IMG/VR virus record: IMGVR_UViG_3300048672_000152 | Span: 1-64,000 of that record | Strand: one strand, 5' to 3' | Length of the DNA: 64,000 bases | DNA from: a virus | Shown here: positions 3,410 through 61,106 of the stretch, in pieces | How positions within the stretch are numbered: position 1 is the first letter of the stretch | How the letters are laid out: each line of letters begins with the position of its first letter | Program-made: the position numbers and the translations under genes | The notes under the pieces: generated by a model | Told to the model about the DNA's origin: nothing | The model's database searches: none | What the model saw: the letters and a program-made list of their open reading frames with translations, nothing else

Positions 3410-5281
3410 TTAAAATAATTTGTTTATATCTACCTCATCTTCAGTATTGAAGTTTTGATAGTGGTCTGAATAGTCTGGTTCTGGTTGGTTAAAGTAAGTA
3501 TTAAAATTGTGCATAGTGTGGGTAGTAATATCGTAGTACCAATTACCTACAATACCTGTCACCCCTGTCCAACGACACTTACCTAGTGTAACCTTAGTGG
3601 TGTTTTGTACAATAGGGTCTTCAGCATATTTGTTCCTGTTTAGGAATATGTTTGCCCCTGCGCTTTTAGTAACTAAAGATAAACCAGATACGTCATCTTC
3701 GGTTAACTCACGTTCGATACGCTTACCTGTCTTATCTGTAGACACATTACCTTTCCTAACGTGGCAAACACAAGAGAAGGTTATACCGTACTTCAACGTA
3801 TTTTTCATCCATTTAATAAAGGCTGTTTGTTCTTCCCAAGAAGACGCATCAAATAAGTCATTTAGGGGGTCTATGATAATCAACTTACATCCATGTTTCT
3901 TAATTAAACGTTCAATCTGCTTACGTACATTATCCAGACTGCCTTCTCGGTCATCTAATAATGCAAATCTTTCCTCTCCGTACTCATTCATCTTCAAACG
4001 ATTACGTGCTTCCATCACATGAGATTGTTTAATGAACTCTACAGCTTTCTCAGGACTGTCAATTAGGTTAATTTTATACCCTACCTCACGACTTAACATA
4101 GCAATCATGTACTGTGCTGCGGTAAGCTCAAGACTTACAATACCCACCTTGTAGGGTGAATTGTAAATCCACTCACGAATGGCTTCATTGACAGTAGTGG
4201 TTTTACCTGCACCTGTTCCTGCAATCCAGTTTACCCAATAACCTAAAGGGATACCACCAGAGAATGCTTTTTGTAAATCACACATGAATGCTGGTAGCGG
4301 GATTTTAGGTCTTAATAGTTCTTCTTCTAAACCATCATCAGCATCAATAGAGGATATAATACCATCATCAAGGTAAGGTTTAGCGCTAAAGAAGTCTCGT
4401 ACAAACTGGTCTTGCTTGCCAGACTCTAACATCTTGTTAGGATCTTTCATAGTCCAATTTGCAATTTTAACTTTGTCTGCGGGTAATACCTTGGCAATTT
4501 CTACCATCGCCTCTTTACCTACGTCATCATTGTCCAACCCTAGAATGATAATTTCAAACGAATCTAAGAAATCGTATTGTGCTGCTATCTGTTTAACTGC
4601 ACTACCTTCACCCGTTGTAGGGCTGACAACAGCAATAGGCTCGAAGTTATCTTGCTTACGTTGTTTCTGACTTTCCCGTAACATCTGGAAGGCAGCAACC
4701 TTATCTTCTTCTCCTCCGGTAATAAGGATATATTTACCCCCAGACTTGAATTTAACCTGTCCAGATAGCTCAGATTTAATACCTGTACGCCCTTTGTTTA
4801 ACATGCCAAATTTCTTAGGAAAGATACGAGATTTATATCCAGTAACTTTACCATCTTCTGTTTCTGGGTAGAAACGTGCTACAGGGTTTCCAGAAGAATC
4901 GCGTTTAGTTAAATGCCCGTAGAACTGATTGTATTCATCTTTAATACCGCGAATATCGTTACCTACATAACCTGTATCTTTAATAAACTGGATGACTTCA
5001 TCTTTAGTCATTGGTTCCTTTTTAGGTTTAGCTGTTACTTTGGTTGAATCAACTACAACACCACCCTCAATACCTAAGTCACCCGCTATACTAGATTTAT
5101 TAATCATTGAAGGTGAAAAATATTGGCTACATGACCAACAGAACCCATCATAGAAAATTTTACCATCTTCATCTGTATTTTGATATACAGCTAAACCATC
5201 ACTGCTATGGCAATCATGTCTATCAGAACATTCACTACCAATACAATGAAAATGTCCTACAAAATCTCCGCTATCTTTCAT
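3410..5281 (-). CDS. DNA primase-helicase (T7 gp4-like)
   Basis: This 623-aa bifunctional enzyme unwinds the fork and primes lagging-strand synthesis. An N-terminal zinc-binding region has CIGSEC...CH and CWSC pairs (residues about 13-53). A TOPRIM fold follows, with YILITGGEEDKVAA and IILGLDNDDVGKEA supplying the metal-binding acidic residues. The C-terminal RecA-like helicase has Walker A (AGTGAGKTT, about residue 355) and Walker B (KLIIIDPLND). It is read just ahead of the DNA polymerase with an 8-nt gap, so the two are surely co-expressed. The length is a little above that of T7 gp4. Confidence 0.95.
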   Translation of the reverse strand: MKDSGDFVGHFHCIGSECSDRHDCHSSDGLAVYQNTDEDGKIFYDGFCWSCSQYFSPSMINKSSIAGDLGIEGGVVVDSTKVTAKPKKEPMTKDEVIQFIKDTGYVGNDIRGIKDEYNQFYGHLTKRDSSGNPVARFYPETEDGKVTGYKSRIFPKKFGMLNKGRTGIKSELSGQVKFKSGGKYILITGGEEDKVAAFQMLRESQKQRKQDNFEPIAVVSPTTGEGSAVKQIAAQYDFLDSFEIIILGLDNDDVGKEAMVEIAKVLPADKVKIANWTMKDPNKMLESGKQDQFVRDFFSAKPYLDDGIISSIDADDGLEEELLRPKIPLPAFMCDLQKAFSGGIPLGYWVNWIAGTGAGKTTTVNEAIREWIYNSPYKVGIVSLELTAAQYMIAMLSREVGYKINLIDSPEKAVEFIKQSHVMEARNRLKMNEYGEERFALLDDREGSLDNVRKQIERLIKKHGCKLIIIDPLNDLFDASSWEEQTAFIKWMKNTLKYGITFSCVCHVRKGNVSTDKTGKRIERELTEDDVSGLSLVTKSAGANIFLNRNKYAEDPIVQNTTKVTLGKCRWTGVTGIVGNWYYDITTHTMHNFNTYFNQPEPDYSDHYQNFNTEDEVDINKLF

Positions 5282-8114: not shown

Positions 8115-8387
8115 TTAAAATTCGTTATGAGGTAAACCAACATCAACAGTAGTTAAACCTAACTCATAAGCCCACATACGTAATACTGACTTACGATCAT
8201 CTACAACATATTCAACATTGTAATTATTCCGAACATACTTGTCGAATAGTTCTTTCTTGATAATTGTATCTTTTCGTTGGTCTTTTTCAGAACGCATTAG
8301 TAACAAACAATCTTGTGTCCATTCACCAACATTATCAATTAACCATTGGCGAGTAGCTTCTTGACAAACAGCATCACGACCAGACAT
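8115..8387 (-). CDS. Polynucleotide 3'-phosphatase part (C-terminal half of split PNKP)
   Basis: The sequence MSGRDAVCQEATRQWL...RKDTIIKKELF...YVVDDRKSVLRMW matches the C-terminal HAD-type phosphatase of T4 PseT, starting in the middle of the family's VIFMSGRD motif. In an intact protein it would be continuous with the kinase frame at 8374-9009. The frames differ by one base in a run of six T (minus strand) at 8388-8393; removing one T gives VIFMSGRD exactly. Either the two halves are translated separately from this ATG (the ORFs overlap by 14 nt), or frameshifting or a sequencing error is involved. Confidence 0.8.
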   Translation of the reverse strand: MSGRDAVCQEATRQWLIDNVGEWTQDCLLLMRSEKDQRKDTIIKKELFDKYVRNNYNVEYVVDDRKSVLRMWAYELGLTTVDVGLPHNEF

Positions 8388-9009
8388 AAAAAATTACATA
8401 ATTGCCTGAATCAAAACGGTAATTAGTTACCATATCAATAACATGCTGTCTTGGTTTATCCAGATGAACTTTATACCACTCGAATGCTGTACGAACGCCT
8501 GTCATATCCGCTATCGACCCGTCGATGTCACAGATAACACAATGTTTCAACCCTTGTTGGTGCTTATGATAACTATCACCATGACGTAATTTCATATATC
8601 GTGCATATTGATCTGTAATTACTTTATATCCAACACCATTAGGACGTTTAGCATCACGTTGTAATGCTTCCATTAAATCAATATCAAAGTATTTAACTTC
8701 AACATCATACCCTAAATCAGTTAAACGATTAATCCAGAAATTACGTGTCTTGTCGTTGATATTAGTATCAGAAATAATTACATTCATACCTAACATCCAA
8801 GCGCCATCAGTAGCCACCTCTTGCTCGCGCGTTACGCGATTTTCACGTTCTTTGGTGAATTTATAAAGATTCCAGTCACGTACACCATTACAAAATAGTT
8901 TGAAACGAATATCGTCACGATTAATATCCATATATCCTTGTGATTCCATTTCTTTAGCAAATGTTGATTTGCCGCTGGCGCTAATCCCGCATAACACATA
9001 CGCTTTCAT
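8374..9009 (-). CDS. Polynucleotide 5'-kinase (N-terminal part of split PNKP, T4 PseT-like)
   Basis: The 211-aa product has the P-loop GISASGKST (residues 8-16, Lys14) and the T4 Pnk-like INRDDIR segment. It then enters the phosphatase domain with HCVICDIDGSIAD (nucleophile Asp161 and Asp163 of the HAD motif). The frame breaks after NYVIF and ends YVWS-stop. In T4 the enzyme heals tRNA ends cut by host anticodon nucleases and works with RNA ligase, whose gene lies just upstream here (9069-10157) beyond a terminator. The kinase module looks complete; phosphatase activity would need the 8115-8387 frame. Confidence 0.88.
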   Translation of the reverse strand: MKAYVLCGISASGKSTFAKEMESQGYMDINRDDIRFKLFCNGVRDWNLYKFTKERENRVTREQEVATDGAWMLGMNVIISDTNINDKTRNFWINRLTDLGYDVEVKYFDIDLMEALQRDAKRPNGVGYKVITDQYARYMKLRHGDSYHKHQQGLKHCVICDIDGSIADMTGVRTAFEWYKVHLDKPRQHVIDMVTNYRFDSGNYVIFYVWS

Positions 9010-9032
9010 CTTATTCTCCTCTCCAAATAAAG

Positions 9033-9060
9033 AAGCCCTATCTTAACAGACAGGGCTTTT
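9033..9060 (-). terminator. Rho-independent terminator (bidirectional form)
   Basis: AAGCCCTATC pairs imperfectly with GACAGGGCTT around a short loop, with A- and T-rich flanks on either side. It lies directly downstream of the RNA ligase gene. Confidence 0.75.
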
Positions 9061-9068
9061 GTTGTCAA

Positions 9069-10157
9069 CTACTTTACGTAATTAGCTAAACATTTCAGTT
9101 TAAAGTTTTCATCAAAACTATTATAAGTGTGTCCAATATTCTCACCGTTCTTACGTGCCTTGAACAATACCCCACTACTAGGTAAATGTTTAATCGCTAA
9201 TGCAAATTCTTTCTGGTCAATGATACCACTCACTTTATCCCAAGTAGTCGCCATCTCTTGTAACATGGTATTATAACCTTCAACATATTTTTCAAAGTGT
9301 TCTGTATCTTCTGGAAAGATTGACAGGTATTCGTCTTTCTCGTTCATAATTACCAACTGCATAATACGTTTTGGATTTAACCCTTCACCCCTCAAGTGAT
9401 GAGCAGCAACGTAAGCAGGATTCTTAACTTTTAATTTAGGTTCACCGAATTGATCATACAACACATAACCTTCGTTCAATTCTCGCAGTTCTTTAGCCGC
9501 AAGCAAACAATCTTCAAACGATTCAAATTTGTAGCTTTTCGGTGATTTCCAACCACGTAGTTCGGCATCTTTACTTAAAAAGCGTAAGTAGTTACCAGTA
9601 AGATTACAACGAACAGCTAGTAAATATGCAGCAGATTCTTCGTATTTAGTGACTACACGATTCTCTCTACCAACTACTTCAAAGATGTATGTGTTATGTG
9701 GTGAATGGATGTAGTCATTAAATTCTGGTTTAAACAGTACAGGCTCAATCAATTCTTTCCATGTGGTTTCCCATCCATTAACGCTAGATGTCGGCATAAT
9801 CATCGAACGTGTTCGATACAACCAATCACCTTTCCAATTGAACAATGAGACAATACTACCATCAACTTTCTCATAAGCTGTCATTTTAGTAATATCTTGT
9901 TGTTCTTGTGTTTCTCCATAATTGAAGAAGCGGTCAAAACTACGACTAACTACTATCCATTTACCTGATTCATCATAAGTGACTACTAGACTACGACATT
10001 CGTTAGTAATTGGATGATTTTTAGGTGATTCAATTTGGTCATAATTCAACACATATAAAATTTGACCATCTTTATCTACCCATTCATTCACTGATAATGA
10101 AAACTCAGTGATCAGATGAGCCATGCAGTTTTGGTTTAAATAGTCAATAACTCCCAT
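9069..10157 (-). CDS. T4 Rnl1-type RNA ligase
   Basis: The 362-aa protein joins 5'-phosphate and 3'-hydroxyl RNA ends through an enzyme-AMP intermediate. The nucleotidyl-transferase motif I is TAYEKVDGSI with Lys97 as the adenylated residue. Upstream, ECRSLVV and SRSFDRFFNYGE match the conserved Rnl1 N-terminal segment, and IFEVVGREN and EGYVLYD match motifs IIIa and IV. Length agrees with T4 gp63 (374 aa). Together with the adjacent kinase-phosphatase it forms the classical tRNA repair pair that defeats host anticodon nucleases, fitting the phage's own tRNA-like cluster at 45.7-46.2 kb. Confidence 0.93.
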   Translation of the reverse strand: MGVIDYLNQNCMAHLITEFSLSVNEWVDKDGQILYVLNYDQIESPKNHPITNECRSLVVTYDESGKWIVVSRSFDRFFNYGETQEQQDITKMTAYEKVDGSIVSLFNWKGDWLYRTRSMIMPTSSVNGWETTWKELIEPVLFKPEFNDYIHSPHNTYIFEVVGRENRVVTKYEESAAYLLAVRCNLTGNYLRFLSKDAELRGWKSPKSYKFESFEDCLLAAKELRELNEGYVLYDQFGEPKLKVKNPAYVAAHHLRGEGLNPKRIMQLVIMNEKDEYLSIFPEDTEHFEKYVEGYNTMLQEMATTWDKVSGIIDQKEFALAIKHLPSSGVLFKARKNGENIGHTYNSFDENFKLKCLANYVK

Positions 10158-11613: not shown

Positions 11614-12921
11614 TTATTTTACCCTAATTACACAATTATCTCCACCAACAACGACATCGTAAGCTTTCTTCATATTTACCTCAGCAGTCTCAGCATAGTC
11701 TTCTTGAACAACAACAGAATCGTGAATTGGTATTAGAATCCTGTCATCTTCAACAGCACGTTCCAACAGATAATCCATCAAACTGCTCTCGATATTCATC
11801 AGAAATGTAGCTTTCTTACTAAAGAAATAATCCATTAGATAAGCATTACGATCCATAAGCATATCCAACATTTTACGTATTACGGGAAAATCATTCCACA
11901 TTCCCTTTTCTTTTGCGTCATCAATCTTGGCTTGCATTCCAGAAGACTTCAGTTCACCGAGCGTTGCATAGTAAGCTGTATCAAAACTATCAGCGTTGAG
12001 CAAGCACATCAACCCTATCTTAGCTAGGTCTCTTAATACTTTAGGGCAGTAACCCTCAATTTCCACAGCATATACATCAAACTCTGGGGATAACTTTTGA
12101 CCAACCAGATCAGCAGCTATTCTAGGCCATAGTTGACTATAATCAAGCTCCACTGTAGGTAAGCCATTAATGTAAATCTCTCTACGATTTTGCTTGTTCA
12201 ACAACTCAGACACGTTAGAACCTGTCATAAAAATCCTACCTCCTTCTCTCAGTGATGAATTGTTATATATTTTCTTCACAGTAAAATAGAACTTGTTATC
12301 TTGAACGCTAACACTAGATTTGTCAAGAGAAGCATTGAAAGCATTTAGTACATCAACTAGGTGCTTTTCTTTTGGAGTCAAGCGTATACCTATGGGCCTT
12401 CCTTTCTCATCCCTAACTTCCAAGACACTCTCTACAGGTTTAAATTTACCACTTACTTCTGCTACCCGAGTAACGATACGTTCATCTAAGTACAGTATAC
12501 TTGACTTAAATGACTCAGGTACTGCTTTGAATTTATCTTTACCATTCTCATCAACATGGGAGAACTTGAGAACATAGTCTTCTGCACCACCTTTCTCAAT
12601 GATGGAGTTAGTAAAATTCTCTAAATAAGATAACACAATCTTCATGTTGGTGTAGCTAATCTTTCTCCCTGTGTTATTGCCATTATACACAGCAGGATTA
12701 GAATATGAACCCTCACTGAGAGTTAAGGTGATATATGGTTTACCTTTACTCACCATAGAAGCAGTATTGAGAATGATACAATAACAACATCTCTTTATGT
12801 CTGTCATTCTTTTAAGAGTAGCTTTCACATCTGTATTCTTAGTTAGATGGTCTATAACTTCTTTGTATAAGCTATCACCTATCTTACTAAGTTGCTTATT
12901 TAAGATATAATCTAATAACAT
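11614..12921 (-). CDS. Palm-domain polymerase-like protein, copy 1 (435 aa)
   Basis: An uncharacterised protein with the three signature motifs of family A polymerases. Motif A is VELDYSQLWPRIAADL (near residue 260). A motif-B-like segment VLRDLAKIGLMCLLNAD has Arg and Lys four apart. Motif C is IPIHDSVVVQ (near 396), where HDS is the form seen in single-subunit RNA polymerases rather than the HDE of DNA polymerases. There is no exonuclease domain, and it is about half the size of the phage's own polymerase. The steric-gate glutamate position after DYSQL is Trp. A paralogue lies at 43121-44425. Possible roles are RNA or DNA synthesis, priming or end-extension; none is shown. The ATG is preceded by a somewhat distant AGGAG. 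Confidence 0.7.
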   Translation of the reverse strand: MLLDYILNKQLSKIGDSLYKEVIDHLTKNTDVKATLKRMTDIKRCCYCIILNTASMVSKGKPYITLTLSEGSYSNPAVYNGNNTGRKISYTNMKIVLSYLENFTNSIIEKGGAEDYVLKFSHVDENGKDKFKAVPESFKSSILYLDERIVTRVAEVSGKFKPVESVLEVRDEKGRPIGIRLTPKEKHLVDVLNAFNASLDKSSVSVQDNKFYFTVKKIYNNSSLREGGRIFMTGSNVSELLNKQNRREIYINGLPTVELDYSQLWPRIAADLVGQKLSPEFDVYAVEIEGYCPKVLRDLAKIGLMCLLNADSFDTAYYATLGELKSSGMQAKIDDAKEKGMWNDFPVIRKMLDMLMDRNAYLMDYFFSKKATFLMNIESSLMDYLLERAVEDDRILIPIHDSVVVQEDYAETAEVNMKKAYDVVVGGDNCVIRVK

Positions 12922-12954
12922 TTAATCTCTAATACTCCTATAATAACTACTACA

Positions 12955-13050
12955 GTAAAGCCCCCTGTCGCTTCGCTCCAAGGGGTTGGGTTCCCCAATA
13001 GCAGGAATAACAGCTTAAACCTTAGTGTAGCAAGGCTTAAACCTATCATT
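12955..13050 (-). ncRNA. Hairpin-containing leader between XRE gene and polymerase-like gene
   Basis: On the minus strand CCCCTTGGAGCGAAGCGACA is followed by GGGGG and CTTT, giving a stem of about 6 bp with a T-poor tail: a weak terminator or attenuator. Two copies of a GGTTTAAGC motif precede it. Confidence 0.4.
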
Positions 13051-13056
13051 TGCTCC

Positions 13057-13263
13057 CTATTTATACCTCACCAATACCTCAACTTCTAGCCCTACAAAGT
13101 CAGCTAACTCAAACAATTTATCATAGCTTACAGAATCAGTTTTCAACCACTGATTGACAGCCTGTCGTGTACATTGTTGATGCTTGGCTACATCAACTTG
13201 AGTGATACCTAAATCTTCCATAGCACTAATAATAGCGAACTGAATTTTATTCTTGTGTGTCAT
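13057..13263 (-). CDS. XRE/Cro-type DNA-binding regulator, 68 aa
   Basis: The segment LGITQVDVAKHQQCTRQAVN is a clear helix-turn-helix, with TRQAVNQWL as recognition helix. The size equals one HTH domain with a short C-terminal dimerisation tail (VGLEVEVLVRYK). It lies upstream of the polymerase-like gene with its own promoter at 13284-13311, so it could regulate early transcription or itself. Target sites are unknown. Confidence 0.85.
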   Translation of the reverse strand: MTHKNKIQFAIISAMEDLGITQVDVAKHQQCTRQAVNQWLKTDSVSYDKLFELADFVGLEVEVLVRYK

Positions 13264-13283: not shown

Positions 13284-13311
13284 AGTTTACCAGATGTTTC
13301 TGTATTGTCAA
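13284..13311 (-). promoter_or_regulatory. Sigma70-like promoter for XRE regulator
   Basis: Minus-strand TTGACA (13306-13311) and TAAACT (13284-13289) with 16-nt spacing. A strong AAAGGAGGTG ribosome-binding site follows before the ATG at 13263. Confidence 0.6.
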
Positions 13312-13558: not shown

Positions 13559-14053
13559 TTATTTAGATTTTCTGTTCACTACGGCTTTACAAAACTCAAG
13601 TAGAGCTTCATCTGTTTCATCATTTTTCATTAGGTTGTACCACCAAACAACAACTCTGACGTTATCTTTAGTGTAACCCTTGCTATTATCAACTCTGTCT
13701 AGTGACGGAGCTAACTTGTTTGTTTTGTATTTTTCAGATGAACATTCGTAGCTGAAGGCTATTCCTGTAGCTTCACAGACTCCAGCGGTTAACTTGTCGA
13801 TTATAAAGTCTAAATCTAATTCAAAACCTGCGTTCGCTTTATTATTTCGCCTAGCACCTTTTAATAGATCCATTGCCTTACCTCTAACACTATTGTAATA
13901 GGCTTTAGCTCTCACTGAATCTTTATTTCTAGTGCATTCCTTACAAGTACGAGCATGGATTGCCACACCTTTATTGTTTGTATAGCAAAAGATAAACTCA
14001 TTGAGTTGTTTGTCAGTTTTGCACACCCTGCAAGTCCTCACTTGGGAAACCAT
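13559..14053 (-). CDS. HNH-type endonuclease with zinc ribbon, 164 aa
   Basis: An N-terminal CRVCKTD...CKECTRNKD pair of CxxC motifs is followed by a helical region and the signature LAPSLDRVDNSKGYTKDNVRVVVWWYNLMK. There the Asp-Arg and Asn-x-x-Lys-Gly-Tyr residues form the metal-bound nuclease core, as in endonuclease VII/HNH phage enzymes. It is the first gene of the leftward early unit. It may be a free-standing homing endonuclease or a DNA-processing nuclease. Confidence 0.85.
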   Translation of the reverse strand: MVSQVRTCRVCKTDKQLNEFIFCYTNNKGVAIHARTCKECTRNKDSVRAKAYYNSVRGKAMDLLKGARRNNKANAGFELDLDFIIDKLTAGVCEATGIAFSYECSSEKYKTNKLAPSLDRVDNSKGYTKDNVRVVVWWYNLMKNDETDEALLEFCKAVVNRKSK

Positions 14054-18576: not shown

Positions 18577-19734
18577 ATGAAGAAATGTATTAGATGTGGT
18601 GAGATAAAACCTTTTGAGGATTACTTTAAATGTAGTCGCATTAAAGATGGGTATATGGGTTATTGTAGAGTCTGCCACAATAAGAACAACAAGGGTGTTA
18701 AACAGGTATTGTATAGCGAAGTTGTTGCCGGAAACGCTTACAAGAATACTCTAGGTGAGGAATTTACGGTTACTTCAATTAGTGGTAAAACTGCTTATGT
18801 TTATTTCAATGAGTTATTACATGGGTCTACCGGTATTGACAAGGTAAGGATAGGAAAAGTATTCACAAACAGTAGGACAGGGGATATACGTAACAAAGTA
18901 AGTAAAGGTCAGGTCATAGGAAACTTAACAATCTTAGAAGACATGCAGGGTAAAAACTCTAAGGTCAATACTCTGTGTAAATGCGGGAATCAATCTTTAG
19001 TAAGAATGGATTATTTAATAAGCGGAGGTATCAGTTGTGGTTGTATTCTCAAGGAAGATAGTCTCACTGTCTCTAACTTTAAGGAAAGCATGTCTAAGTG
19101 GAATCCTACAACACACCGGATAGATGTGAAGAAGTTACCTATATTCAAACTAAACCCTGAAGGGGAAGGTTGTCATATTGATGGATGGACTTATGTTGAT
19201 GACTATATTTATAACAGCCTGAGCAAATGTATGTTGACTAGAAACATCTACGTATTCGTAGGATTGAGTAAAATTAACTCTGATGCGCTTGGTATTAAGT
19301 ATACCTATGGTCACAAAAGAATACCATTACACTCTTGGGTGAAAGCTATGCCTACCGGAGTTAAAAACTTAGTCACTGACCATAAAAACGGCTGTAAGTT
19401 AGACAACAGGATGTGTAATTTAAGGATTGCAGATTCATCACAAAACTCAGCTAACTCTAAAGCTAACAGTGGTACAGGATACAAAGGAGTGACTCAACTT
19501 GCGGACGGTAAGAAAGGTACGCCTATTAAAAATGTTTTGGCGCAAGGTTGGATACCTCTACAAAATAAGCACAAATTCCTTGGCAAGTATTACACAGTAG
19601 AGGAAGCAGCTAAAGCTATAGACATTTGGAATATCCAAAACTATGGAGAGTTTGTTAGGTTGAATTTTAAAAGAAGTATTTATGAGGAGATGGGATTACT
19701 CCCTAAGACAGAAAAGAAATACAAACTCCCATAA
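18577..19734 (+). CDS. HNH/AP2 homing endonuclease with zinc ribbon, 385 aa
   Basis: Begins with a CxxC zinc ribbon (MKKCIRCGEIKPFEDYF...CRVCHNKNN). It has further cysteines in the middle (CKCGNQ...CGC). The HNH core VTDHKNGCKLDNRMCNLRIA is followed by an AP2-type DNA-binding segment (GYKGVTQL...FLGKYYTVEEAAKAID). This is the layout of free-standing phage homing endonucleases. It sits alone between a terminator and the gene-free region, the usual position of a mobile gene. Confidence 0.88.
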   Translation: MKKCIRCGEIKPFEDYFKCSRIKDGYMGYCRVCHNKNNKGVKQVLYSEVVAGNAYKNTLGEEFTVTSISGKTAYVYFNELLHGSTGIDKVRIGKVFTNSRTGDIRNKVSKGQVIGNLTILEDMQGKNSKVNTLCKCGNQSLVRMDYLISGGISCGCILKEDSLTVSNFKESMSKWNPTTHRIDVKKLPIFKLNPEGEGCHIDGWTYVDDYIYNSLSKCMLTRNIYVFVGLSKINSDALGIKYTYGHKRIPLHSWVKAMPTGVKNLVTDHKNGCKLDNRMCNLRIADSSQNSANSKANSGTGYKGVTQLADGKKGTPIKNVLAQGWIPLQNKHKFLGKYYTVEEAAKAIDIWNIQNYGEFVRLNFKRSIYEEMGLLPKTEKKYKLP

Positions 19735-32980: not shown

Positions 32981-33868
32981 CTAATTGCTCATATCTAATT
33001 CATTGCGAAATGCTTTCCAAGTAGGAAATCTAGGTACACCATAACTAGACAATTCTTGATACTTGAATGTTACAAGCTTACCTAGACATTTATCTTGGTT
33101 ATCCCAAATATCTTTGCGCTGTTCATCGGTGAATCCACTACCGATATTGAATACTACACCACCCCATTGCACTTGTAAAGAGCCAAGTGTGTTTGCGGGA
33201 AGTAAACCTTCTTTCTTACTTGAGCGTTTGCTATACCCTCGTTCATCCGTTTCTTTGATGTTTGTGTTGGTCATCTTTTCTTCAAAACCAATAACAGTTG
33301 CTTCGTCGTCTAAGAAACTTTTCAACTTCAACAAATAACCTTCTTTGAATGTAGACCGTCCTTGTTTATACTTGCCATTTAATGATCGTAAAATGCCACC
33401 TTCATAACCTTGTGATATGTATTTCCCTAGCAGATTTTCAACTTCTTCTGGAGTCTCAGCAATATCAGAAATCACGCGCTTAACATACAGTGGTCTATCA
33501 ATCTCCAACACTTTAATCGTGTAAATATTAGCTCGTTCTTTGAAAGGTAAATCACTATCCCAATAATCATAAACAGCCAAATAGAAATCTGGCTCTCCAT
33601 CTTCTGACATAATTGCTGACTGAACAGAATTGAAGTCCCCATGTACCATTAACTCCCCATCCAAACCATGAAGGTTTAATTCTTTAAACACTTCCTGTAC
33701 AAATCGGTTAGGGATAAGCTTCATTTTGCGACTATAAGCCACCCCGTTAATAGCTAGACAACGTATTCCGTCGAGCTTTTGTTGAATGAAACACGGATAC
33801 TTAATATCGGTGTATAAATTTGGTATTTCCGATGCCGCCAGCATACATTGCTTAATCATACTTCCCAT
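32981..33868 (-). CDS. ATP-dependent DNA ligase, 295 aa
   Basis: Motif I QQKLDGIRCLAI (Lys31 adenylated), SRKMK (motif Ia), GLDGELMVHG (motif III), QGYEGGILRS (motif IV) and LLKLKSF (motif V) are all present, followed by an OB-fold with LGSLQVQWGG and TFKYQELSS. Small size matches T7-type minimal ligases. It seals nicks in replication or repair. The upstream HNH gene overlaps its start by 17 nt. Confidence 0.93.
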   Translation of the reverse strand: MGSMIKQCMLAASEIPNLYTDIKYPCFIQQKLDGIRCLAINGVAYSRKMKLIPNRFVQEVFKELNLHGLDGELMVHGDFNSVQSAIMSEDGEPDFYLAVYDYWDSDLPFKERANIYTIKVLEIDRPLYVKRVISDIAETPEEVENLLGKYISQGYEGGILRSLNGKYKQGRSTFKEGYLLKLKSFLDDEATVIGFEEKMTNTNIKETDERGYSKRSSKKEGLLPANTLGSLQVQWGGVVFNIGSGFTDEQRKDIWDNQDKCLGKLVTFKYQELSSYGVPRFPTWKAFRNELDMSN

Positions 33869-34487
33869 TTAATACCTCCTCTTTAAATAAATTTATTAAT
33901 TTATCCGCCACCCTTGCGTCTTCTTGTAAGGTAGCGAGTTGTATTGCCAATTCCTTCTTCCTTTTCTTCCACTGATTATGTGCCTCATCCTCAGAGAAGA
34001 AATACCCTAAATGTTCAACCGTATTCGTAAAAGGGTTACTACATCTTGCCCTAAATTTACCGTTTGGTTTGTAAATGTCAACTCCTAATTTGTATTGACC
34101 GCGCCTTTTCTCACAATCTAATAAGAAACAGTTAGTGAGTCTATCAACAAATACACAAGTTTCTGGACTGTAGAGCTTTCCATCACCCAACAAATCTTTA
34201 TCTAACTCCCTACCTTCCCAGTTTTGTGTTTCCATCCATGTTTTAAAATTAGAAAAGGTAAGCCACTCAAAACAAACGTTTGTATTATCGTAAGTCGAAC
34301 TTTTCATTAAGGTCTTCTTATTATAACAGCGTTTCAGCATATTGGACCAAGTTGTGAAATATGGACATCTGACTCGAAGTCCACCCGATCTCAAGTCTAC
34401 TTGATAATCCGCATCATTGACCCCAATACCGTATATAAGTGTTTTTGACTTTTTTCTTCTTGGTGAGATGGTAAAGTTCATTTCCAT
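33852..34487 (-). CDS. HNH/AP2-type phage endonuclease, 211 aa
   Basis: The segment TWSNMLKRCYNKKTLMKSSTY, then WLTFSNFKTWMETQNWEGRE, LDKDLLGDGKLYSPETCVFV and a C-terminal KLGVDIYKPNGKFRARC match a common family of phage homing-type endonucleases with AP2-like tail, found singly between host genes. It sits between the phosphoesterase and ligase genes and overlaps both, as a mobile gene might. Activity not certain. Confidence 0.75.
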   Translation of the reverse strand: MEMNFTISPRRKKSKTLIYGIGVNDADYQVDLRSGGLRVRCPYFTTWSNMLKRCYNKKTLMKSSTYDNTNVCFEWLTFSNFKTWMETQNWEGRELDKDLLGDGKLYSPETCVFVDRLTNCFLLDCEKRRGQYKLGVDIYKPNGKFRARCSNPFTNTVEHLGYFFSEDEAHNQWKKRKKELAIQLATLQEDARVADKLINLFKEEVLNGKYD

Positions 34488-36644: not shown

Positions 36645-37353
36645 GCTCAGTGATAATTAATTTTCCATTATCATCAACATCAACAGAAATCTCACCTAAT
36701 ACATATTGAGCTAATTGTGATTTAGTTAATTTTAACAGTTGTTCTCTTGTCAAAGTTTCTTCGTAGAGGTCGTCTAAGTTGAAAGCTTTGGTTTGAGCTT
36801 CTTTTTGTTCTTGAATTTGAGCTTTGATAATGTTCTCACGTTTTTCAAGTCGCTCACAGATTTCATCATACTCTAAATATGAATCCTTACCTTCAAGAAT
36901 ATCTTCAATTTCTTCTGGTGAATAGAAACCAAAGTAAACATCTTGGTACAAGGCACGTAATTGTTTGTCGCTAGATTGAATCGACCTAATTTTATCGCTT
37001 AACTTACCACCATCGTACCCATGAGATGTGTGACTCATAAGTGTGGAGTGTGGCATCACTTCAACTGAGTGACAAGACAGTAGCAGAATAGATCCACCAC
37101 TCATTGCTACACCATTCAAAATACCATGTACATGACCGTTACAAGAACGAATCATATTACTAAGCATTGTAGTAGTGTGCAGGAATCCTCCAAAACAGTT
37201 TATTGTTAGTTCAAGAGAATCATCTTCCGACATAGAAGTCAATACTTGAACTAATTCTCTATACTTGCTAGGTTCTTCAATATCCCCGTCAATGAAATAT
37301 GCAAAGTTTTGTGGAGAAGGTTTTACGTAAATTGTATCTAATTCGTTAAGCAT
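36622..37353 (-). CDS. ClpP-like serine protease, 243 aa
   Basis: Residues LELTINCFGGFLHTTTMLSN and CNGHVHGILNGVAMSGGSIL (nucleophile Ser near residue 84) and STLMSHTSHGYDGG (catalytic His near 110) match the ClpP/crotonase-fold protease family. The C-terminal part is helical. ClpP-type phage proteins can process the capsid, but this gene lies in the early/middle arm, far from the head genes, so cleavage of other phage or host proteins is equally possible. Confidence 0.88.
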   Translation of the reverse strand: MLNELDTIYVKPSPQNFAYFIDGDIEEPSKYRELVQVLTSMSEDDSLELTINCFGGFLHTTTMLSNMIRSCNGHVHGILNGVAMSGGSILLLSCHSVEVMPHSTLMSHTSHGYDGGKLSDKIRSIQSSDKQLRALYQDVYFGFYSPEEIEDILEGKDSYLEYDEICERLEKRENIIKAQIQEQKEAQTKAFNLDDLYEETLTREQLLKLTKSQLAQYVLGEISVDVDDNGKLIITELDNSVPE

Positions 37354-37889
37354 TGTTCTCTCCTTAAAATATTGTATTGAAATTCAAGCTGTTTCCTCAC
37401 GGTAGCAGCTTCGATTTCTGTGTTATATCTGCCGAAATACGTAGAAACTCCTCCTACTGGAAACCAAACTTCCCATTTATTATCTTTTGGTCTGATGCCG
37501 TACCAAGCATATGTCGGAGATTTACCTGTATTAAATGTGTTAGCTGAAACCGTACTTAGTCTCAAATTACATATACGATTATCTAAACTATCTCCATTTA
37601 TGTGGTCAATAATAGAAGATGTGTCACCATAAACGTAAGCCCAAGCAACTCTATGTGCTTTGTATCTTACCTTGTTTACATATAAACTCTTATATTGGTA
37701 GCCAGAGGCGTTTTCCTCTAAACTACCCGCTAACATCCCTACATGCTTCTTATTAAAACTTTTCCAAACTGTATCAGTCTTGAAATGTTCTCTAGGACGA
37801 GTCTTCCAGAGGAATTCTCCTGTGCTTGGGTTATATTCAAGTACAGACTTAATGTAATCCACAGGTATCGTCTTGGGTAATAGCAACAT
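37338..37889 (-). CDS. HNH/AP2 homing endonuclease, 183 aa
   Basis: The HNH core is VRYKAHRVAWAYVYGD followed by SIIDHINGDSLDNRICNLRL, where His and Asn residues bind the metal. An AP2-like DNA-binding tail (YAWYGIRPKDNKWEVWFPVG) follows. Its 3' end overlaps the ClpP start by 16 nt. It is wedged between PhoH and ClpP, a typical free-standing homing gene position. Confidence 0.9.
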   Translation of the reverse strand: MLLLPKTIPVDYIKSVLEYNPSTGEFLWKTRPREHFKTDTVWKSFNKKHVGMLAGSLEENASGYQYKSLYVNKVRYKAHRVAWAYVYGDTSSIIDHINGDSLDNRICNLRLSTVSANTFNTGKSPTYAWYGIRPKDNKWEVWFPVGGVSTYFGRYNTEIEAATVRKQLEFQYNILRREQCLTN

Positions 37890-43120: not shown

Positions 43121-44425
43121 TTGTATTGGATAGATTATAAGATAAGTAATGAGATGAAAGAAGTTAGTAGTAAGTATTATACCGAGTACGTAGATTATTT
43201 ATCTAAGTTTAATGAAGTTAAGTTAACAATTAATAAACTTACTAAGATAAGACAAGCTGTAGATTGTCTGTTCTATAACATTCAATACAGCTTAAAAGGT
43301 GATACGATCATAGTCACTAGAGATAGGAATGATTTTAGTAGACCACTAATCTATAATGGCAGGGTAGTTAATCGTAAGGTAAGCTATGAGTATACTATGT
43401 CATTATTCTCTTGGTTACATGCTCAAGGTTATGCTACTAATGAGATTGGTTTAGTGGATAATTGGGTGATGAAGGGTGGTGAATGGACACCGTTAACCAT
43501 TAAACAAAGTAAACTGATATTATCTGACCAACTTATGAGGGATGTCAATACTGTACTTATAGACAAAAAGAATGTACCTCCAGTAGAGAATGTTATTCGT
43601 ATCCGTGATGAGAGTAAGAATTATGTCACTAAGCGTTTAGGTGAATATCAGCAACACCTGTGTAAGTTACTTAAAGAATACAACCATTTGTCTAAGAGTT
43701 TTATTTTAGAATCATGCGGTAAAGAATTTGACATTCAGGTAGCAAAGGTGTACAATCAATCTTCCTTCCAGAAGGGTGGAAGGACTTATGTTATTGGGGG
43801 AGGAAGTGAAGTGTTAGAGAGTGAAATCAGAAGTCGATTAACTGTTGATGGTGAAAAGACTGTTGAATGTGATTATAAGAGTTTACATGCTCGTCTTGTT
43901 GCTACTGTAGTTGGTACACATATCCCACTAGACCATGACCCTTATCAACTGACTTTGGATGGGTATGACAACAAAGTGCTGCGTAAGATATGTAAGTTGC
44001 TTGTCCTGTGTATGTTTAATGCTAGTAGTAAGCAGAGTGCTATTTCAGCAGTTAACAAAGAAATCAACGAAACATCGTATGTCGATGAGAATGGGAATGA
44101 TATTCCAATCAGAGATTATTGGTTTAAAGAAGGTTTAGCTCCAAAGTATTTAGAGTTGAAATACATTGCGGATTTATTGTTAGAACACAACCCTTATATG
44201 AAAGGCCATGCTTTTACTGGATGTGGTATGGATCTACAGAATTTAGATTCACGTATGATGGATATTGTGGTAGATTATTTCACTAATAATGGGGAGTTCT
44301 GTTTACCTGTGCATGATTCTATTGTTGTTCGTGAAACTCTAAAAGACCAAGCAATCACTGTAATGTATGAAGCATATCTACAAGTTATGGGTAATAACGA
44401 TAATTGTATTGTGGATGTTAAATAA
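43121..44425 (+). CDS. Palm-domain polymerase-like protein, copy 2 (434 aa)
   Basis: Paralogue of 11614-12921. Motif A is TVECDYKSLHARLVAT (Asp near residue 251). Motif-B-like VLRKICKLLVLCMFNAS has the Arg-x3-Lys spacing. Motif C is LPVHDSIVVRE (near 395). Both end with a DNC-x-I/V-x-VK tail. N-termini align (MYWIDYKISNEMKEV with MLLDYILNKQLSKIG). No exonuclease domain. The glutamate position after motif A is His. The ORF starts at TTG with GGAGG 13 nt upstream, an unusual spacing, so the true start is uncertain. Role unknown; template-dependent nucleotide addition is the natural hypothesis. Confidence 0.7.
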   Translation: MYWIDYKISNEMKEVSSKYYTEYVDYLSKFNEVKLTINKLTKIRQAVDCLFYNIQYSLKGDTIIVTRDRNDFSRPLIYNGRVVNRKVSYEYTMSLFSWLHAQGYATNEIGLVDNWVMKGGEWTPLTIKQSKLILSDQLMRDVNTVLIDKKNVPPVENVIRIRDESKNYVTKRLGEYQQHLCKLLKEYNHLSKSFILESCGKEFDIQVAKVYNQSSFQKGGRTYVIGGGSEVLESEIRSRLTVDGEKTVECDYKSLHARLVATVVGTHIPLDHDPYQLTLDGYDNKVLRKICKLLVLCMFNASSKQSAISAVNKEINETSYVDENGNDIPIRDYWFKEGLAPKYLELKYIADLLLEHNPYMKGHAFTGCGMDLQNLDSRMMDIVVDYFTNNGEFCLPVHDSIVVRETLKDQAITVMYEAYLQVMGNNDNCIVDVK

Positions 44426-48144: not shown

Positions 48145-48861
48145 ATGAACAATATTGAGTGGCGAGTTATCCCAGATTTCCCTATGTATAAAATCTCTGA
48201 ATATGGAGATATTTATAGCTATTACAAATCTGGAAAAATGCTGAAACCTAAATTAGATAAAGATGGGTATCTGGCTGTAAATCTTACTGAGAATAAAGTT
48301 AGACACGACCTACGAGTACATCGTTTAGTCGCTTCAGCCTTTCTAGATAACCAAAATAATCTACCAATTATAAATCATAAAGATTTGAACGTAAGTAACA
48401 ACCATTACTCTAATTTAGAGTGGTGTACTTACACTCACAATACTGTACATTACTATGCTAACGGTATTAATAAAAGAACACTATCTTCTTTAACTAAAGA
48501 AGAAATGTTGTCTATTGTATCAGACTACAAAGATGGTGCTTCACATAAAGATCTTAAAGAAAAATATAACCTAGAGTGTAGGGCTGACGCAATCAGTGAA
48601 ATTGTAACTGGACGTAGATTTTCTGAAATTACCGGAATCGTAAAATCAGATAAATTTGAACAACGCACAACAGCCAAACACGATGATGATTTAATCTTAG
48701 AGCTTTTAATTAAAGCTCATTGCAATAATATACCTCAGAAAACTTTATGTGAAGAATATAAGTTATCTGCTGCACAAATTAGTAGGATAGTTAATGGTAG
48801 CAGACGGAGAGAAGTATTCGAGAAGTTTATGAAGGAGATATATGAAAAAACCAAAAGCTAA
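48145..48861 (+). CDS. NUMOD4-HNH homing endonuclease (free-standing), 238 aa
   Basis: NUMOD4 DNA-binding segment IEWRVIPDFPMYKISEYGDI and HNH core VHRLVASAFLDNQN, INHKDLNVSNNHYSNLEWCT with His and Asn metal ligands, followed by a helix-turn-helix tail (CEEYKLSAAQISRIVNGSRR). It lies outside an intron, upstream of the interrupted terL, whose ATG at 48842 lies inside this gene's 3' end. A target near the intron site of the terminase is plausible. Confidence 0.9.
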   Translation: MNNIEWRVIPDFPMYKISEYGDIYSYYKSGKMLKPKLDKDGYLAVNLTENKVRHDLRVHRLVASAFLDNQNNLPIINHKDLNVSNNHYSNLEWCTYTHNTVHYYANGINKRTLSSLTKEEMLSIVSDYKDGASHKDLKEKYNLECRADAISEIVTGRRFSEITGIVKSDKFEQRTTAKHDDDLILELLIKAHCNNIPQKTLCEEYKLSAAQISRIVNGSRRREVFEKFMKEIYEKTKS

Positions 48862-59528: not shown

Positions 59529-60821
59529 ATGGCAGATAATGTAGTAGGCTCAGTTGTTGGTCGTGTTAGGTTTAGTATTGATAAAAGGTCGTGGGATAAT
59601 CTCGATTTATTTCAAAAGAAACTTACCTCAATTAAACGACAAATGACTAACATGGACAAGAGTATTAAAGTTAATGCTGTTGTCCAACAAATAAATAAAG
59701 TAGCTAATACGGTCGTGAACGCTGAAAAGAAAGTAGCTAAAGCGAAAGAAGAAGCGGCTAAGAAGAATCATAAACTAATGACTTTCGGTAGTGTTGGTGG
59801 TGATCCTAAAGGTTATACGAAGTTCTGGCAAGAGGAACTAAAGACTCGTGACCAGCTAACTAAAGCCAGAGAAAAGCAAGATGCTATTTACGCTAAACGT
59901 CAACAAGCTGCTCTAGCTAACAATAACAAACGTGCTGGTATGTCTGATAGACTAGCTTGGTTATTCCCTGCATCATCTGTAAGTAATCCAGCCAATCGCG
60001 GTTTGTTAGCTCAAATGCTTCGTGATGAAGCCACTGCGAGTGTTAAGCTCCAGAGAGAACAAGACAAAGCATACGAAGCTCGTCGTAAAGATGTGATGGG
60101 TAGGCGCAATGCTTCTTTAAAATCTCGTGCTGCTCGTGACAGAGCTAAAGAAAAACAAACAGCCAAAGCCAATAGAAATAGAACAGCATTTGAAGCTGGC
60201 GTTGAAAACTTCATGCTCATTAAAGAATCTCAGCTTAATCAATATGCTGATAGGGTGAGAATGAGTCAGCAACAACGTGCTGAGATGATGGGTCGTCTAG
60301 GTAAAGCAAAGGAAGATGCTTTAAAAGGTATTGACCCCACTCAGGCTAGAGCTATTGAATCTTTTAGAGCGCAAGTAAATAAAACTAAGAATGAAATGGT
60401 TAACACTGACCGTATTACTAGGTCTAATGCTGTTTCATTTAGGTCACTACGTAATGAAATTGTGCAACTAACTGCTGCTTATACGGCGTTTAGTGTTGTG
60501 CAGAATGTTGCTCAGACTGGTATGGATCTCGAAGGAATTCGTGCTGCTGCTAAAGTATTTACAGGTAGCGACGCAGGGACTACTGCTCACATGGAATACC
60601 TTGTAGAAATGTCTGATAGACTTGGCGTTAACTTCATGACAGCAGCTAAAGAGTTTAATAAATTCTCTATTGCTGTAGGTAGTAAAGCAGATCAAGGTAC
60701 ACAAAGACATATCTTTGAAGGTTTGTCAGAGTATGCAACAGTATTACAAGTAGACCAACAACAATATGAACGAGCTATTCGTTCAGTAGTTCAAATGTTC
60801 TCAAAGGAACAAGTATACGCT
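59529..60821 (+). CDS. Tape measure protein, exon 1
   Basis: The 431 residues of exon 1 are basic and strongly coiled-coil (residues about 60-290), then enter the conserved TMP region (ITRSNAVSFRSLRNEIVQLT, AAKEFNKFSIA). The reading frame ends at TAA directly after codon GCT (60819-60821) inside the conserved SKEQVYA-EEL-GQL segment, marking a group I intron insertion. TMP sets tail length and is expelled on injection. Confidence 0.85.
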
Positions 60822-61106
60822 TAAATTCAGGTGCTTCATATAGTAATATATGTCGAAGAATCTCTCTAATTCGGTGGAACTCTTACCATGTAATGATGGA
60901 GACAATGCCGAGCGAAGCTCAATGTATAATATTGAGAACGTGTGACGGTCAGAACGATAGTTCGTACCCTATAAGCTATTGATAGGGGAAACGGGAGATA
61001 CCGTATTATTAAATTAACGGTAAAGAGATGACCTAATCTGTATAGAAATATACAGCAGCATGTAAAGATGCGAATAACTTAGTAGCGTAAGTTATTGAAT
61101 TATATG
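60822..61106 (+). ncRNA. Group I intron 1 of tape measure gene (285 nt)
   Basis: Exon ends in U (GCT), intron starts TAAATTCAGGTGC and ends in G at 61106. GGTGGAACTC and CAATGCCGAGCGAAGC are the typical P3/P6-P8 region, and GTGTGACGGTCAGA with AAGAGATGACCTAATC the P7 pair. No ORF. P1 may be formed by CGCT with GGTG (T-G at the site); this pairing is short and less sure than in the other introns. Confidence 0.75.

Follow-up and report, generated by a model that had tools for sequence, protein, structure and literature searches.

The closest described relatives of the polymerase considered here are the divPolA2 proteins, named by Yutin et al. (2024, Virol J 21:200; PMC11348598). These occur in 110 barbaviruses, which are Rheinheimera phages, and in other phages, sometimes as two or three copies per genome. 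They retain an intact palm and lack an exonuclease, carry an N-terminal domain unlike any known, and sit in variable gene neighbourhoods; the functions proposed for them were a repair polymerase or an RNA polymerase (PMC11348598). A second system that invites comparison is CCPol of the SCCmec elements, a polymerase of the A family. Together with a small partner, MP, it synthesises primers de novo, and it is linked to a helicase. A-family polymerase-SSB pairs are widespread in mobile elements of Bacillota (PMC7581432, PMC10061031).

The window analysed here is a stretch of 64,000 nucleotides from a virus record of 93,452 bp (IMGVR_UViG_3300048672_000152). It encodes a divPolA2-type protein, P0001, and a second paralogue, P0002 (Table 1). 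We tentatively propose that P0001 is an accessory primase-polymerase for a mobile replicon, a reading that we hold at somewhat short of an even chance and that is weighed below against the alternatives as the evidence for each is given. Taken as a whole, the assignment of a mechanism carries moderate confidence.

Table 1. Features of the polymerase locus and related genes; positions are those of the window, residue numbers those of P0001.
Feature	Position	Strand	Basis
Regular family-A DNA polymerase (PolA), 823 aa	930..3401	-	PF00476 E 8.9e-13; PHROG 17
Primase/helicase	3410-5281		PHROG 239
divPolA2-type polymerase P0001, 435 aa	11614..12921	-	ORF; PHROG 4756; AF2 model/Foldseek; pN/pS
Motif C IPIHDSVVV (397-405), catalytic D401 in beta hairpin	11707..11733	-	model and alignment
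'LQxxDS'-motif helix, here LMNIESSLM (372-383), E378	11773..11808	-	378 covaries with 265 and 402
Motif B / O-helix (297-311): R297, K301, N309	11989..12033	-	helix 293-309 in model
Motif A VELDYSQLWPRIAA (257-270), catalytic D260, gate W265	12112..12153	-	conservation; strand-helix in model
GGRIF (227-231), R229; family-A 'TGR' motif preceding motif A	12229..12243	-	R229 conserved; aligned with DNA polymerase I 8jrb
N-terminal domain (1-175): two long helices, then beta-rich part	12397..12921	-	model pLDDT 89.6
68-aa helix-turn-helix (HTH) protein	13057..13263	-	HTH_37 E 4.9e-6, HTH_3 E 5.8e-4
Candidate sigma-70-like promoter TTGACA-16-TAAACT with TG, upstream of HTH gene	13284..13311	-	consensus scan only
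Second divPolA2 paralogue P0002, 434 aa, His gate	43121..44425	+	PHROG 4756 E 5.7e-84

Family, fold and catalytic residues

P0001 is 72-73% identical to barbavirus proteins and falls with them in PHROG 4756, a family without assigned function that it matches over its full length (E 1.7e-63). It is homologous over most of its length (BLASTP E 2e-27) to AUR84708, the published representative and the protein modelled by Yutin et al. (locus L102 here), and its best match in BFVD is a Barba31A protein bearing the UniProt name DNA polymerase. Because of the 73% barbavirus identity, the homology to AUR84708 and the Barba31A match, P0001 is filed under divPolA2, an assignment that is near certain. Its other properties are those of the family: a palm that keeps its catalytic residues, the lack of an exonuclease, an N-terminal domain without known similarity, a regular PolA to which it is additional, and flanks unlike those of barbavirus. 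The first-pass annotation, which knew of no characterised member, thereby implied a novelty that the 2024 publication of divPolA2 removes. The phage studied here and the barbaviruses are alike in having the polymerase as an extra one, in several paralogues per genome and in a variable neighbourhood. They differ in the regular polymerase, which is PolB in barbaviruses and PolA here, and in active-site type: AUR84708 is of a Glu-gate FDE type, whereas both paralogues here are of a His/Trp-gate HDS type.

The open reading frame reported earlier exists and contains the segments quoted from it, but it lies on the minus strand, where it begins with ATG; the plus strand across the same interval is riddled with stop codons. 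Between this gene and its barbavirus homologue pN is 0.18 and pS, which is saturated, is 0.78, and the gene is under strong purifying selection. The earlier annotation was right that P0001 is one of two such proteins and that the phage already has a full DNA polymerase. P0002, of the active-site type HNDS, is 30% identical to P0001 over its length, and these two are the only divPolA2 copies found in the whole record; the regular PolA is the sole PF00476 match there. P0001 is accessory to this PolA and to the primase/helicase. In the regular PolA itself, the steric-gate position is Gln (DMKSAQ; codon of residue 566), and Phe replaces the O-helix Tyr.

The AlphaFold2 model of P0001, made with 48 aligned relatives, has a pLDDT of 94.5 and a pTM of 0.87. 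It orders the elements as follows: a beta strand and helix carrying motif A; an O-helix with R297 and K301; a helix from residue 371; and D401 at the turn of a hairpin. In a Foldseek search against the PDB, the top ranks are held by the Bst, Taq, Klenow and apicoplast family-A polymerases (best E 2.2e-6), with yeast mitochondrial RNA polymerase matching more weakly (E 1e-4). TM-scores by query length are low (0.26-0.41), which in our reading would reflect an unmatched N-terminal third and a differing domain orientation. A family profile built from 18 diverse phage members, which were gathered with BLAST instead of a motif, has DNA polymerase I (8jrb) as its top sequence match in the PDB (E 0.0093), with GGR/TGR and motifs A and C aligned; compared with the phage's own PolA, the family profile gave nothing useful. 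The model, the fold matches and the conserved motifs indicate that P0001 is a divergent family-A-type polymerase. This is the class first suggested for it, and two of the checks then named, structure prediction and a profile search, both point to it: the former returns a polymerase palm/fingers fold and the latter DNA polymerase I. Proximity of D260 and D401 would follow from the fold match and topology.

The protein had also been described as palm-only, which it is not, because helices 293-358 of the model, including the O-helix, form a compact fingers subdomain; an N-terminal domain (residues 1-175) is present in addition. The model of the latter has no PDB fold match at E<=0.001, and the domain is possibly a thumb substitute or a DNA-binding domain. 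A winged-helix identity for it was considered on weak MarR/AdcR/HTH_27 sequence hits in relatives and set aside, the fold search giving no support. An exonuclease domain was sought across the 435 residues and, as claimed before, none was found. Pfam and NCBIfam models gave no match to P0001, with PF00476 (DNA_pol_A) absent even at E<=1. The RNA polymerase profile PF00940 matched nothing in the record, and nothing in the control genomes either.

P0001 is like Pol I and T7 DNA polymerase in its palm/fingers fold (Foldseek E 2e-6), its TGR-like motif, D260, R297/K301 and D401. It departs from family A in having no DNA_pol_A match, exonuclease or homologous thumb, and in replacing the gate Glu with Trp265, the O-helix Tyr with Asn309 and HDE with HDS. 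One possibility would be that P0001 is a primer-dependent DNA polymerase with an accessory part in repair or lesion bypass; repair is among the options named by Yutin et al. (PMC11348598). Among solved folds, those of DNA polymerase I enzymes come closest; compact fingers and a missing exonuclease would suit low-fidelity gap filling, and the phage has a regular replicase; one clade of the family even carries a DNA-polymerase-like Glu/Gly/Glu set (see below). Most members, however, lack the Glu gate, and both the HTH neighbour and the recombinase-rich context of the bacterial relatives are untypical of repair genes, so that we regard a repair role as possible but doubtful.

The catalytic residues themselves are well preserved. 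All three segments singled out by the first-pass annotation occur in P0001: motif A as TVELDYSQLWPRIAA (residues 256-270), motif B as R297-x3-K301 followed by N309-A310-D311, and motif C as IPIHDSVVV. Across 83 aligned relatives, D260, R246 and K301 never vary, and R229, R297 and D401 hardly do; viral and bacterial relatives alike keep Asp260 of motif A, Arg297 and Lys301 of motif B, and Asp401 of motif C. Since the key residues are conserved across the 83 relatives and the gene is under purifying selection, the quoted segments are not chance resemblances. The invariance of T256, V257, E258, H265 and P266 in alignment A3 derives partly from the DNA pattern used to collect its sequences and is not taken as evidence; residue statistics come instead from an unselected phage set, A2. 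P0001 would probably act as a two-metal nucleotidyl transferase. That it is instead a catalytically dead structural or regulatory relative, as the unusual Trp at the gate position and the redundancy with the main polymerase might suggest, is most improbable: both paralogues and nearly all of the 83 relatives keep all catalytic residues, and selection on the gene is strong.

Active-site types

Set A2 comprises 27 phage members, none chosen by motif. At position 265, corresponding to E710 of Pol I, 15 members have His, 10 have Glu and 2 have Trp, the last confined to P0001's own sub-branch. Alignment confirms that the gate Glu is replaced by Trp in P0001 and that its motif C is the RNA-polymerase-like HDS; the Trp gate is atypical among these members. 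Position 378 tracks the gate exactly, with Asp in the His group, Gly in the Glu group and Glu in the Trp pair. At position 402, just after the Asp of motif C, the His group carries Ser or Ala and the Glu group Glu, Asp or Ala; both Trp members have Ser. In its sequence record, T7 RNA polymerase has H811-D812-S813 in motif C and S785-Q786-D787, and Pol I has HDE in motif C and Ala852; position 378 was equated with residues of these two enzymes through motif alignment by eye, not structural superposition. N309 of P0001 occupies the place of the O-helix Tyr of both (Pol I Y766, T7 RNA polymerase Y639), which within divPolA2 is found mainly in the ICP1/AUR84708 sub-branch.

Judged from these residues, the family contains two natural types, an RNA-polymerase-like His/Asp/Ser set and a DNA-polymerase-like Glu/Gly/Glu set, with P0001 as a Trp/Glu/Ser variant of the first. 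In the tree, a single clade (SH-aLRT 92) unites all Glu members, and the two Trp members share one long branch. Coupled change of positions 265, 378 and 402 is suggestive, not proven, because the tree shows one Glu and one Trp event. Statistical coupling of the three was considered and not adopted: the pattern is real, with only two events in the tree behind it. The combination of Trp265 with an HDS motif C may suggest relaxed or ribose-tolerant sugar selection.

Such features raise the question of RNA synthesis, and a single-subunit RNA polymerase was the other function put forward by Yutin et al. (PMC11348598). It would transcribe certain genes of the phage or element, to which the upstream HTH protein might direct it. 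P0001 resembles the T7 and mitochondrial RNA polymerases in HDS and in a non-Glu gate, and most of its relatives have the Asp of the DS helix motif, as in T7 RNA polymerase; the mitochondrial enzyme is also among the fold matches (E 1e-4). Tyr639 of T7 RNA polymerase is needed for ribose recognition, and its equivalent in P0001 is Asn309. The N-terminal and promoter-recognition regions of the T7-type enzymes are absent, the protein, at 435 aa, has half the length of T7 RNA polymerase, and Foldseek places DNA polymerases first. In sum, an RNA polymerase is unlikely. As to the primase-polymerase proposal, CCPol itself makes DNA primers, not RNA, a point that weighs against it; a non-Glu gate is for this reason not required by the proposal.

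Bacterial relatives and mobile elements

Bacterial genomes, one per species, were searched with a degenerate DNA pattern for TVExD[YF]xxLHP. This gave 67 loci, 60 of which encode divPolA2 relatives (profile E <1e-25). The hosts are mostly Alphaproteobacteria and include Polynucleobacter, desulfobacteria, Marinobacter, Brevundimonas and others. Many of these relatives share a GGRFYGGWWQ hallmark, none falls in a Pfam or NCBIfam family, and a reverse search from a bacterial query recovers the same phage genes. A plasmid search for relatives yielded three matches only, and scans of viral contigs with peptide patterns few or none.

In loci of 8 kb or less, phmmer finds a tyrosine integrase or a small serine resolvase in 32 of the 60, and in 24 of 52 once the eight loci from which the query recombinases were taken are dropped. 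The unrelated control loci from the same pattern, a small set of seven, contain none. Nine of the recombinases were confirmed by direct Pfam scan (PF00589 integrase, PF00239 resolvase and one DUF6538 protein). Because integrases or resolvases occur in many loci and in 0/7 controls, integrated mobile elements are the setting of the bacterial branch in many cases at least. In Desulfopila aestuarii (L087, 6983-7978), an AAA_25 (RepA-like) ATPase lies directly upstream of the homologue, as expected of a replication module. Pipolins (piPolB) are likewise integrative elements that carry a polymerase together with recombinases, and offer an analogy for the bacterial relatives, although the pipolin polymerase belongs to family B and is an unrelated protein.

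Features in common with CCPol-MP are an A-family polymerase, no working exonuclease and a reduced thumb. Many bacterial relatives are located, as CCPol is, on mobile elements with site-specific recombinases, whereas P0001 itself is on a phage. CCPol-MP has a small SSB-like partner and a helicase, and none was recognised beside P0001 in a sequence-only search, by which an OB fold could be missed. Downstream small genes were considered as an SSB-like partner and rejected, having no Pfam match and not being conserved between loci. The N-terminal part of P0001 forms a separate fold, in which no truncated exonuclease is recognisable. The CCPol group comes from Bacillota and divPolA2 from proteobacterial phages, and the two are likened by description, not by sequence. 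Membership of the CCPol group is not claimed, because neither the SSB-like partner nor the helicase was found beside P0001; the proposal extends to a similar mode of action only.

Neighbourhood, exchange and proposed role

The HTH gene adjoins P0001 upstream on the same strand, and its product is probably an operon partner or regulator of the polymerase. It is 44% identical to the HTH protein encoded upstream of a relative (L025). A small same-strand HTH gene lies directly upstream in 10 of the 20 viral loci tested, that of P0001 included; none lies upstream of P0002 or in the other half of these loci. Promoter sites of the kind listed in Table 1 number 11 in the 2-kb region, against 7.0 expected. 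The HTH gene and the polymerase are separated by a 135-nt leader (12922-13056, minus strand), which folds strongly (-45.7 kcal/mol) into two adjacent hairpins. In the barbavirus leader, a similar hairpin (TTGGG..CCCAA) is present, and the second hairpin after it differs. An Rfam search of this leader found no family, and a structured RNA was set aside as a candidate with two comparable sequences only.

The gene also exchanges between genomes. In two ICP1 isolates (L010, 1930-4340; L020, 1441-4699), the flanks of the locus are 100% (1440 nt) and 98% (1925 nt) identical, while the divPolA2 genes within it are 28% identical over 240 aa. Between the P0001 locus and barbavirus, alignment is limited to the coding region (71% over 1303 nt) and extends into neither flank. 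The divPolA2 gene is therefore mobile, in a cassette-like exchange. The locus of Vibrio phage ICP1 is hypervariable: between the near-identical flanks, whole sets of genes are swapped that are unrelated to one another and include a different divPolA2 each time.

Exchange of this kind could also mark a conflict or exclusion factor, swapped because it is a weapon, or is itself attacked, when phages compete with other phages, with satellites or with hosts. Such a factor may make untemplated DNA, as Abi reverse transcriptases do. The contrast between flanks and polymerases in ICP1, the patchy distribution with paralogues, and the adjoining small HTH (Xre/HTH_3-like) gene, as in toxin-antitoxin pairs, are consistent with it. 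The HTH partner is missing from half of the viral loci, though, and PADLOC gave no match for the polymerase proteins, for which a defence-system identity was accordingly dropped; we consider a conflict role very unlikely.

Under the primase-polymerase proposal, P0001 would be a compact polymerase of one chain that combines the palm and fingers of family A with an N-terminal domain in the role of the usual thumb. It may, less certainly, start or extend short strands on single-stranded DNA. The bacterial relatives would serve integrated elements, the phage copies would provide a second, exchangeable route to replication start, and the upstream HTH protein would regulate or recruit the polymerase. 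Consistent with this proposal are the fold and catalytic residues in a phage that already has a regular polymerase and primase/helicase, the frequent integrases and resolvases of the bacterial loci and the RepA-like AAA_25 gene of L087, the cassette exchange in ICP1 and the coding-only match to barbavirus, the HTH gene in half of the viral loci, and the precedent of SCCmec CCPol and the A-family polymerase-SSB pairs (PMC7581432, PMC10061031). Several points weigh against it: no SSB-like or helicase neighbour was recognised, unlike in CCPol-MP-Cch2; priming would be redundant with the phage's own primase/helicase; the HTH gene is missing upstream of P0002 and in half of the viral loci; and the recombinase control set is small.

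To our knowledge, classical primases are of the DnaG and AEP types only, and the only de novo initiators of the A family described so far are CCPol, in SCCmec-like elements, and the T7-type polymerases, which initiate with RNA. Speculatively, and with considerable doubt on our part, divPolA2 could represent, in phages, a large and as yet unnamed family of mobile-element primase-polymerases with the A-family fold, whose members start strands without a classical primase. Its gate types, at least two in number (His/Asp/Ser and Glu/Gly/Glu), would be swapped as cassettes, and its Trp branch would make RNA or be indifferent to the sugar. The main text of Yutin et al. makes no mention of bacterial homologues or of the HTH neighbour (PMC11348598); the bacterial branch, the ICP1 allele exchange, the HTH neighbour and the coupled active-site types are additions to the published family. 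Three findings bring the function of divPolA2 within reach of a test: the branch in bacterial mobile elements, the exchange of alleles and the existence of two gate types. The natural gate variants in phages and integrated elements would allow a test of how family A shifts between DNA and RNA synthesis, and likewise between extension and initiation, with the ICP1 exchange as a natural comparison.

The window has further features. Downstream of P0001 lies an RNA repair pair (8374-10157, minus strand) of a T4 Rnl1-like RNA ligase (PF09511) and a polynucleotide kinase, the latter with part of a PNKP phosphatase domain; in Pseudomonas phage vB_PsaM_M1 (L012), an RNA ligase is also near the divPolA2 gene. 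Five reading frames have, by eye, the look of HNH or homing-type endonucleases (13559-14053, 18577-19734, 33852-34487, 37338-37889 and 48145-48861), one of them close upstream of the module. In the structural-gene region, a group I catalytic intron (60812-61055, plus strand) is located at the end of a 431-aa reading frame (59529-60824); its match to RF00028 scores 57 bits and exceeds the gathering score.
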